A program made the translations under genes and the position numbers. A DNA stretch of 64,000 bases, from assembly GCF_001618145.1 (NCBI RefSeq), contig NZ_LQNF01000004.1, positions 124,001 through 188,000 of the forward strand. The letters run 5' to 3'. The notes beneath the pieces were generated by a model. It did no database searches. It was not told the DNA's origin and saw nothing but the letters and a program-made list of their open reading frames with translations. This document shows, piece by piece, positions 15,434 to 53,195 of this stretch. Source of the stretch: Oceanobacillus damuensis. Its GTDB lineage: Bacteria; Bacillota; Bacilli; Bacillales; Amphibacillaceae. The stretch's first letter is position 1, and each line of letters opens with the position of its first letter.

Positions 15434-15506
15434 GGGGCATTAGCTCAGCTGGGAGAGCGCTTCGCTGGCAGCGAAGAGGTCAGCGGTTCGAGCCCGCTAT
15501 GCTCCA
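15434..15506 (+). tRNA. tRNA-Ala (anticodon GGC)
   Basis: A 73-nt cloverleaf. Acceptor strands are GGGGCAT and ATGCTCC with one G-U pair; the D arm has TAGCTCAGCTGGGAGAGC; the anticodon stem-loop CTTCG-CTGGCAG-CGAAG places GGC at 34-36; the T arm contains GGTTCGAGCCC. The discriminator is A and the CCA end is not encoded. It stands alone, not in an rRNA or tRNA cluster. Confidence 0.96.
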
Positions 15507-15557: not shown

Positions 15558-15885
15558 GTTATTCCTTTCACACAGCAGCTCAATGATGGATCCCTGCAAA
15601 AAGTGGCAATTGAAGTATTTAATCAAACGTTTGTCCAATTTCGTATAAACCTTTTAAAAACCTTTATTAATCTTTAACTGTCAGAATACCCTGTAAAACC
15701 CGCTTTAAAAATTAATCCCCTGTCTGCAAGATAATTGATTCTATCTTTCCCCAGGCTTTTTTCCGTTAACAATCCAGTCTATTTATAACAAGGCGCACTT
15801 TATAAAATTATTGAAATCATCAATGACAAGAGCGGTTTTATTTGATATGCTTAATGCAATAGTTCTACAAATCTCATATCGCAAA

Positions 15886-15986
15886 ACTACTAGGGGTGCC
15901 CAATGGTGTGGGCTGAGAGGAAAGCATGTGTACACTTTCCGACTCTTATGGACCTGATCTGGCTAATACCAGCGGAGGGAAGTAGT
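15886..15986 (+). promoter_or_regulatory. TPP (THI-box) riboswitch
   Basis: Class-defining segments are present: ACTACTAGGGGTGCC at the 5' side, GGCTGAGAGG, ACCTGATCTGGCTAATACC and GCGGAGGGAAGTAGT at the 3' side, with P1 formed by ACTACT (15886-15891) and AGTAGT (15981-15986). It senses thiamine pyrophosphate and controls thiW-tenA-thiD-thiM-thiE. Confidence 0.97.
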
Positions 15987-16020
15987 CGGACATTACGTCC
16001 ATTCTATTTTCAGCTTATCA

Positions 16021-36903: not shown

Positions 36904-37386
36904 TTATAATTGTTCCTGTTTATATGCGTTGCGTCTTAAACGATTTTCTTTTCTTGCTGGTGCGGTAGAAAATAAAACCTTTTCCTCATCACTTCCCGGG
37001 AAAACGCCGGGTACTGGAACAGGTTTTCCGTTTTCGTTTACTGCAACCATTGTCAGAAATGATTCTGTCGTAAGTTTCTTTTCATTTTTGATTAAATCAT
37101 GTGCGGTCACTTTTACATACACTTCCATGGAACTTGTCCCTGTATACGTTACATAAGCCTCCAAGGTTAATGAGTCACCCACTTTCGCCGAAGAAAGAAA
37201 ATCAACCGAATCGATGGAGGCTGTGACTACTGCACTATTCGCGTGCTTCATTGCGGCTAAGGCAGCAATTTCATCAATATATGCAAGTATTTTTCCACCG
37301 AAAATAGTATTTAAATGATTAGTGTCCGGCGGCATTACCAGTCTGGTCTGGATTGTTTTCGTATCTTTTATAGCTATCTTCTCCAA
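36904..37386 (-). CDS. Acyl-CoA thioesterase, YkhA-like hotdog
   Basis: A hotdog thioesterase of about 160 residues that hydrolyses long-chain acyl-CoA. The DTNHLNTIFGGKILAYIDEIAALAA segment, given by its key residues N-H-L-N and GG...D-E, contains the catalytic Asn/Asp region near residues 20-45. The open frame extends to 37494, but those codons overlap the upstream terminator; the TTG at 37386 (LEKIAIKDTK), nine bases after AAGGAG, is preferred. The gene lies directly downstream of a cobalamin riboswitch with its terminator, an unexpected regulator for this family. Confidence 0.85.
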   Translation of the reverse strand: MEKIAIKDTKTIQTRLVMPPDTNHLNTIFGGKILAYIDEIAALAAMKHANSAVVTASIDSVDFLSSAKVGDSLTLEAYVTYTGTSSMEVYVKVTAHDLIKNEKKLTTESFLTMVAVNENGKPVPVPGVFPGSDEEKVLFSTAPARKENRLRRNAYKQEQL

Positions 37387-37453: not shown

Positions 37454-37481
37454 TAAAAACACCTTCTCTGATTGAAGATGT
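37454..37481 (-). terminator. Riboswitch-linked terminator before the thioesterase gene
   Basis: On the minus strand ACATCTTC-AATCAGA-GAAGGTGT is followed by TTTTATTG. It lies between the B12 aptamer and the thioesterase start, where a regulated expression platform is expected. Confidence 0.65.
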
Positions 37482-37525
37482 CCGGGAATGTCACTAATTA
37501 TGATGAATGAAAATAAATCTAAATT

Positions 37526-38022
37526 AGCGCGGCCACCCTCCTATCTCCCGTAGGAATAAATGTCCTTCCTTATGGCAGGTCTCCTGGCTTCGAATCACCG
37601 AATCCTATCTGCCTTTCCGTGAACAAAATCGTAAGCGCCTTGATCACCCCCGACAAGCTTAAGAAGAAACTACCAGAGGCGTTCTTTGCTACAGGTAGTT
37701 TCTTCTTAAGACCTCGAGGGGGTAGTCCGCTTTCGCTGGACGATCAAAAGCGTAGGTGACTGTTTAGAAACTCTATGCTAGCAAGGGACTGGAAAGCGCA
37801 TGGTTTTCGCGCTTGGAATGTCCTTTGCTTATGACAGGAGTTTCTAGGAACCGGAGCTTGACGTGGCTGTTTAGGTGTAAGAGTTAATTACTGCCAAAAT
37901 CTATGCTTTCTTATTTTTCCATAAAAAACAGTGGCTGCCTGAAGGATTCTCCTCGTTACAGTGTCGGGACCGCGCTGGACTTTCACCAGCTTCCCTTTTC
38001 AACTTTGAATAGAAGGCCGCCA
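37526..38022 (-). promoter_or_regulatory. Cobalamin (B12) riboswitch with enlarged variable arm
   Basis: On the minus strand the core is complete: AAGGGAAGCTGGTGAAAGTC, then CAGCGCGGTCCCGACACTGT, the CAGCCACTG end of the core (37929-37940), and the B12 box AAGCCAGGAGACCTGCC at 37574-37590. P1 closes with GCGGCC (38015-38020) against GGCCGC (37529-37534). Between CACTG and the GGAAAGG segment, normally a short hairpin, lie about 310 extra bases of nested palindromes. The element precedes an acyl-CoA thioesterase gene. Whether the aptamer still binds ligand is open, since this arm varies in length among family members. Confidence 0.88.
37619..37928. repeat. Nested palindromic repeats inserted in the riboswitch
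   Basis: Element one (about 37631-37757) has CTTAAGAAGAAACTACC (37658-37674) pairing perfectly over 17 bp with 37694-37710, flanked by CTTGATC (37639-37645) and GATCAAAAG (37742-37750). Element two (about 37758-37860) has TAGAAACTC (37765-37773) against GAGTTTCTA (37838-37846) with an inner GCGC hairpin. No reading frame is present. They look like REP/MITE-type mobile palindromes. Confidence 0.75.
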
Positions 38023-38039
38023 TAACATGAAACTTAACT

Positions 38040-52985: not shown

Positions 52986-53155
52986 TTTAATCTTCCTTCC
53001 AATAAATTTATAATTACAAGTTTACACTTAGTTACTTTATGTAAGTATTATATTAATTTTTATTATGGTTGTCAAACTGTTTATATGACGTATACTATAC
53101 TGAAAAAGCTTTTCTCAAATCTGGTTTTTGTATTATATTAATTTGCATTGCTTCA

Positions 53156-53195
53156 CGTGGTTCGTGACCATCCCACGATAAAAAACTAAGGAGAG
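53156..53195 (+). promoter_or_regulatory. preQ1-I riboswitch overlapping the queT ribosome-binding site
   Basis: CGTGG (53156-53160) pairs with CCACG (53173-53177), with GGTTCGTGACCATCCC between and the tail TAAAAAACTAAGG. This is the class I preQ1 aptamer pattern. The tail runs into AAGGAGAG, the ribosome-binding site of queT, so control should be at translation. Confidence 0.88.

Follow-up and report, generated by a model that had tools for sequence, protein, structure and literature searches.

A cobalamin riboswitch of Oceanobacillus damuensis with an apparently mobile, modular palindromic repeat in its peripheral hairpin

The window analyzed here, a stretch of 64,000 nucleotides from Oceanobacillus damuensis, contains a cobalamin riboswitch (RF00174) at 37539–38025 of the minus strand, upstream of an acyl-CoA thioesterase gene, and one peripheral hairpin of this riboswitch has very probably received, by insertion, a copy of a palindromic repeat that is modular and mobile. 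The conserved cobalamin blocks are found in order on the minus strand of 37526–38022, with about 310 nt lying between CCACTG and GGAAAGG. An earlier note had described the locus as a cobalamin riboswitch swollen by about 310 nt, and this description is confirmed, as RF00174 scores above its cut-off and the insert measures 307 nt. The extent of 37526–38022 given there is too short, because the element runs beyond the 37526 end to a terminator at 37457–37483. The riboswitch and its gene are composed as follows.

37928–38025, minus strand: 5′ part of the aptamer, with the P1 5′ strand (38019–38025), P2, P3, P4, L5, and the 5′ strand of the arm down to CCACTGT (cmscan, reading, and pairing)
37965–37969, minus strand: L5, UCCCG (read from the sequence)
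37964, minus strand: C to A change that breaks the inner P5 pair; C in 100 of 100 other aligned riboswitches (alignment)
37616, minus strand: G to A change in GGGAAGG, beside the insertion arm; G in 100 of 100 other aligned riboswitches (alignment)
37570–37620, minus strand: 3′ part of the aptamer, ACGGAAAGG (reading, alignment with relatives, and pairing)
37574–37590, minus strand: B12 box, AAGCCAGGAGACCTGCC (aligned with relatives)
37570–37576, minus strand: P1 3′ strand (pairs with 38019–38025)
37539–37555, minus strand: P13 hairpin, whose loop CGGGA (37546–37550) is complementary to L5 (reading and pairing)
37457–37483, minus strand: intrinsic-terminator-like site of the expression platform (terminator search)
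36904–37386, minus strand: downstream gene, a 4HBT (hotdog) thioesterase (profile matches; putative TTG start, by comparison with O. rekensis)

The search with the covariance model, which the earlier note had proposed as a check, recognizes the family but misplaces half of the element: cmscan gave RF00174 a score of 35.4 bits (cut-off 31.5) on 37816–38039(−), placing the 3′ half of the riboswitch within the insert, down to 37816, and missing the true B12 box at 37574–37590. The swollen riboswitch thus shows how annotation by covariance model can go astray for such an element. That the two halves belong together, as had been claimed, is borne out by the same downstream gene, the same P13/L13 platform, and the pairing across the insert. 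P1 pairs at seven of seven positions, P3 at three of three, P4 at five of five, and P13 at five of five, and the L5–L13 kissing loop UCCCG/CGGGA, by reading, pairs at all five; this last interaction is backed by a compensatory C73G/G188C change in three other riboswitches (L192, L208, and L224). Of the parts said to be intact on the minus strand, the B12 box and P1 are so, but the core is not fully so, owing to the two changes at 37964 and 37616. Neither is the hairpin between the conserved blocks replaced by repeats. The basal stem of the arm, which pairs at three of three positions at its base and at four of four at its tip (CTGT/ACGG), is retained, and the element occupies its loop. We take this CCACTG/GGGAAGG hairpin to be part of the P6 extension. 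Elsewhere in the window lie a TPP riboswitch (15882–15997), a preQ1 riboswitch (53151–53195), and a tRNA (15434–15506).

The downstream frame matches Pfam 4HBT with 72 bits, over the cut-off, and its best NCBIfam model is YciA at 59.7 bits, under the cut-off of 162 for that model. A scan of named genomes retained 80 of 327 thioesterase relatives; a motif search that let the 5′ half sit up to 500 nt away places a cobalamin riboswitch immediately 5′ of the 4HBT thioesterase in 47 of these 80 loci, nearly all from Bacillales by title, while a stricter motif found both halves in 45, one half in 3, and neither in 32. These 47 riboswitches, together with five from the genus whose more distant thioesterases are 57–64% identical, form a comparison set of 52. 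The loop at the insertion point measures 18 nt or less in all 52, the figure of 18 in O. massiliensis being an overcount due to a second GGAAAGG. The distance from CCCGC.ACTG to the B12 box is 75–87 nt in 46 of the 47 and 116 nt in one (L162). The latter, from Lentibacillus saliphilus, has a different stem extended by about 35 nt beyond the usual length. In O. rekensis and O. massiliensis, too, the riboswitch that precedes this gene is uninterrupted, with scores of 92.1 and 95.5 bits, respectively.

The comparison with relatives that had been suggested therefore yields the uninterrupted form in every one of the 52 other thioesterase-linked riboswitches. The idea that this stretch of 307 nt belongs natively to the riboswitch, as a long form of its peripheral arm, has no supporting point that we found; it is rejected on account of these short loops and is opposed also by the occurrence of the same sequence at some 39 further sites in the genome, and we give it practically no weight. 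Because the loop is so short in all the others, the element most likely entered the O. damuensis lineage. Misplacement of an approximately 40-copy repeat in a draft genome of 73 contigs might also be imagined, since the assembly is a draft and the element is repeated; in relatives, however, the sequences on either side form part of a single riboswitch in front of the same gene. This makes a chimaeric join unlikely and an artefact of this kind very improbable, although errors in the internal arrangement of the insert are conceivable.

The insertion into an existing riboswitch thus stands as the preferred reading, and the inserted sequence is divided as follows.

37621–37927, minus strand: dispersed repeat of 307 nt, inserted in the CCACTG/GGGAAGG hairpin loop (genome repeat search and relatives)
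37863–37927, minus strand: left module, with an approximate border, the alignable part starting from about 37918, past the T-tract (copy alignment)
37742–37863, minus strand: middle module, about 121 nt, palindromic, tandem in some copies (copy alignment)
37621–37742, minus strand: right module, about 121 nt, a long palindrome with arms at 37658–37674 and 37694–37710 (copy alignment and folding)

The two REP-like palindromes that had been noticed are indeed two strong palindromes, but they are parts of one modular dispersed element that has an additional left module. When the insert was used as a query against its own genome, at least 54 matching pieces were obtained, a lower bound because 40 of 113 first-look candidates were scored; the main ones are 79–94% identical, and the pieces group into at least about 40 places, which are the copy in the window and 39 others. 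The modularity is visible among these copies, as the middle module is absent or nearly absent in three (L065, L071, and L072) and doubled in three (L008, L009, and L013). Pieces of the insert are also found, at E ≤ 1e-6, in 40 of 147 Amphibacillaceae genomes, the own genome included, which represent 18 of 46 genera. The many similar copies at unrelated sites and the empty site at this locus support, on sequence grounds, the identification of the insert as a mobile dispersed repeat of a MITE-like kind. By eye, no target-site duplication was seen in the listed copy flanks, and the repeat termini are just loosely complementary. Matches of the insert to mir-4659 and mir-578 fall far under their cut-offs and arise because the palindrome is perfect.

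When the other 39 loci were scanned with Rfam at the gathering thresholds, no second copy inside a riboswitch came to light; the scan returned a PreQ1 element, over 1 kb away from the copy at its locus, and a Bacillaceae-1 RNA located in a copy of the repeat. The Bacillaceae-1 RNA (RF01690, 79.2 bits, minus strand) lies in the right module of that copy (L005:1774–1840), so this RNA family may travel with the repeat.

The predicted hairpins of the insert are very stable, which might be taken to mean that it is an independent regulator, such as a pause, processing, or termination site, that now controls the leader. The transcribed strand of the insert, however, contains no terminator-like site, and covariation was found at none of 25 pairs of the middle module among 27 copies, which are too similar to one another to tell; for that reason we make no RNA-level claim for this module. 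Independent regulation by the insert seems improbable to us, and insertion of a dispersed repeat that folds by itself is preferred.

A terminator-like hairpin with a T-tract, defined as a hairpin of −6 kcal/mol or better ending in a T-tract, precedes the repeat by 8–23 nt in 24 of the 33 tested copies (6 of the 39 other copies, being without a usable left end, were left out), as compared with 3 of 33 control stretches 300–370 nt upstream and 5 of 33 control stretches 200–270 nt past the right end. This placement suggests a mobilization mechanism that targets terminators or T-tracts. The threshold was also reached on the opposite strand in 18 of 33, so many of these sites are bidirectional terminators, compatible with either orientation of the repeat. 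By the same test, no terminator hairpin precedes the copy in the window, which lies behind a stretch of T residues in the arm of the riboswitch. The arm was perhaps entered because its T-rich loop resembles the T-tract that usually precedes the repeat.

How well the aptamer can fold around the insert was evaluated by the energy required to force the aptamer helices. For the full RNA the cost above the free minimum is 13.2 kcal/mol, and without the insert it is 12.2 kcal/mol, in a version for which four arm-tip pairs were not enforced because they would have no loop. With dinucleotide-shuffled inserts the same cost is 18.7 ± 3.4 kcal/mol, being as low as the native value in 2 of 60. These costs are predictions made without the pseudoknot, ligand, or co-transcriptional order, and the minimum-energy fold of the whole RNA, computed without pseudoknot and ligand, differs from the aptamer fold. 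The low cost relative to the shuffles thus suggests, within this model, that the self-complementary insert is a mild guest. Pairing between the insert and the aptamer was below the shuffle mean, though not significantly, as 9 of 60 shuffles were as low; in this test the right border of the insert was one base off and five impossible pairs were requested.

The condition of the rest of the riboswitch was judged from an alignment of 101 rows, in which the own sequence is joined across the insert. This alignment and a 56-row one omit G024:C12 (21.7 bits, under the cut-off and not riboswitch-like by eye) and two arm-less riboswitches, G005:C17 and G015:C15. The O. damuensis riboswitch keeps 43 of the 45 most conserved columns (those conserved at 97% or more); among the 101 rows, 85 show no deviation in these columns, 10 show one, 5 including the own show two, and 1 shows three. 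In the thioesterase-linked subset of 53 rows including the own, 69 columns are conserved at 95% or more, and here the own sequence has 3 deviations, O. rekensis 5, and O. massiliensis 4, with none in 36 of the 53 rows, so by count the own riboswitch is no more eroded than both congeners, although its core changes are unusual. Rfam pairs mapped through the alignment are formed at 26 of 40 (0.65), the ninth lowest value among 101 rows, whose median is 0.75; several mapped pairs, P2 included, are poorly aligned in all rows. A rough clock, based on a weakly supported tree, multiplies the copy's terminal branch of 0.067 by 69 columns to give about 4.6 expected neutral changes, and 3 were seen; the number of changes accumulated since the insertion would thus be compatible with neutral decay, which it does not reject. 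A search of the 125 nt preceding the aptamer gave no consensus promoter; the best site there has 6 of 12 matches, while shuffled versions of the upstream sequence mostly gave 7–8 of 12 and 15 of 47 relatives reach 10. The only 9-of-12 promoter-like site lies about 300 nt upstream of the aptamer.

In the same genus, two riboswitches (L134 and L135, at 36.7 and 50.7 bits) are devoid of the whole peripheral arm and keep a P13-like hairpin. In the mycobacterial ppe2 cobalamin riboswitch, the P6 extension is truncated, and ligand binding is described as weaker than in the metE switch with its large extension (PMC11260477). The bearing of these arm-less and truncated forms on the tolerance of the arm cuts both ways.

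These data leave considerable room, though somewhat short of an even chance, for the possibility that the insertion or later point changes ended ligand sensing, making the leader a decaying relic and freeing the thioesterase from B12 control. The two changes at otherwise invariant bases (37964 and 37616), the Rfam-pair count under the median, the missing consensus promoter close upstream, and the substitution count that fits neutrality all speak for such a loss. On the other hand, P1, P3, P4, P13, the kissing loop, and the terminator still pair, the deviations in the 69 columns do not exceed those of the two uninterrupted congeners, and the native insert is unusually harmless to the predicted fold. 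On balance, it is slightly more likely than not that the switch still responds to B12.

The following mechanism is proposed. The riboswitch probably controls the acyl-CoA thioesterase through transcription termination. Its peripheral hairpin has very probably taken in a copy of the mobile modular palindromic repeat, which is predicted to form a separate domain carried on the retained arm stem, while P1, the four-way junction, and the L5–L13 kissing loop could still form around it, given the pairing shown and the fold predicted. The binding of cobalamin in the P3–P6 junction is described as favoring the L5–L13 kissing loop (PMC10907184), and formation of the ligand-favored kissing loop would lead to that of the terminator. 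We infer from the riboswitch class and the terminator that the ligand lowers expression here. In this scheme the insert would be a passive domain carried by the arm and, presumably, would also postpone synthesis of the second aptamer half by the time needed to transcribe 307 bases. The role of the thioesterase in such a circuit might be, as a speculation, to free CoA from acyl-CoAs that accumulate when B12-dependent mutases stall.

The locus shares with known RF00174 riboswitches most of the conserved core, the B12 box, the L5–L13 kissing loop, the terminator, and the position in the leader of a metabolic gene, and differs from them in the 307-nt mobile repeat in its peripheral hairpin and the change of two invariant bases. 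The closest parallels concern the placement of repeats in other RNAs. The trp leader of pneumococcus contains two T-box riboswitches with a BOX element between them, and the authors of that study judge the switches still functional (PMC3049150); as in O. damuensis, a modular repeat is co-transcribed with riboswitches, but there it sits between two of them, whereas here it is inside one aptamer. Rickettsia palindromic elements reside inside tmRNA and RNase P RNA, with an effect that is possibly neutral according to a review (PMC2229807), and likewise represent a palindromic repeat within a structured RNA; the host RNAs, unlike a riboswitch, do not sense a ligand, and the likeness drawn here is one of placement. 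With repeats of the BOX/RUP/SPRITE kind, the O. damuensis repeat shares the modular build, the variable number of middle units, and the strong predicted folding described for BOX (PMC3049150), and it has the flanking modules around a variable number of middle modules that make a repeat BOX-like. Its copies differ in lying behind terminators and in Bacillaceae-type genomes, and the likeness to this group is one of architecture. In the passages that name riboswitches, a review of such repeats brings them in as a possibility and by way of the BOX case (PMC10969869). Repeats between riboswitches and in other RNA genes are known, and no precedent for a repeat inside an aptamer was found among the open-access literature matches listed; the locus is therefore classed as a cobalamin riboswitch that carries a mobile repeat.

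In our estimation there is an even chance that O. damuensis possesses a working riboswitch that tolerates a self-folding repeat of about 300 nt, in which case palindromic repeats of this terminator-associated family could enter structured leader RNAs as insulated domains and the delay of 307 bases would shift the switch into a different kinetic regime. Be that as it may, the locus is a natural experiment in which a mobile palindrome has been placed within an aptamer, and the 52 uninterrupted riboswitches serve as its controls. Questions that can be tested with it are what length a peripheral arm may reach, whether repeats that are self-complementary are tolerated through folding apart from their surroundings, and what effect a delay inside the aptamer has on a switch that acts during transcription.
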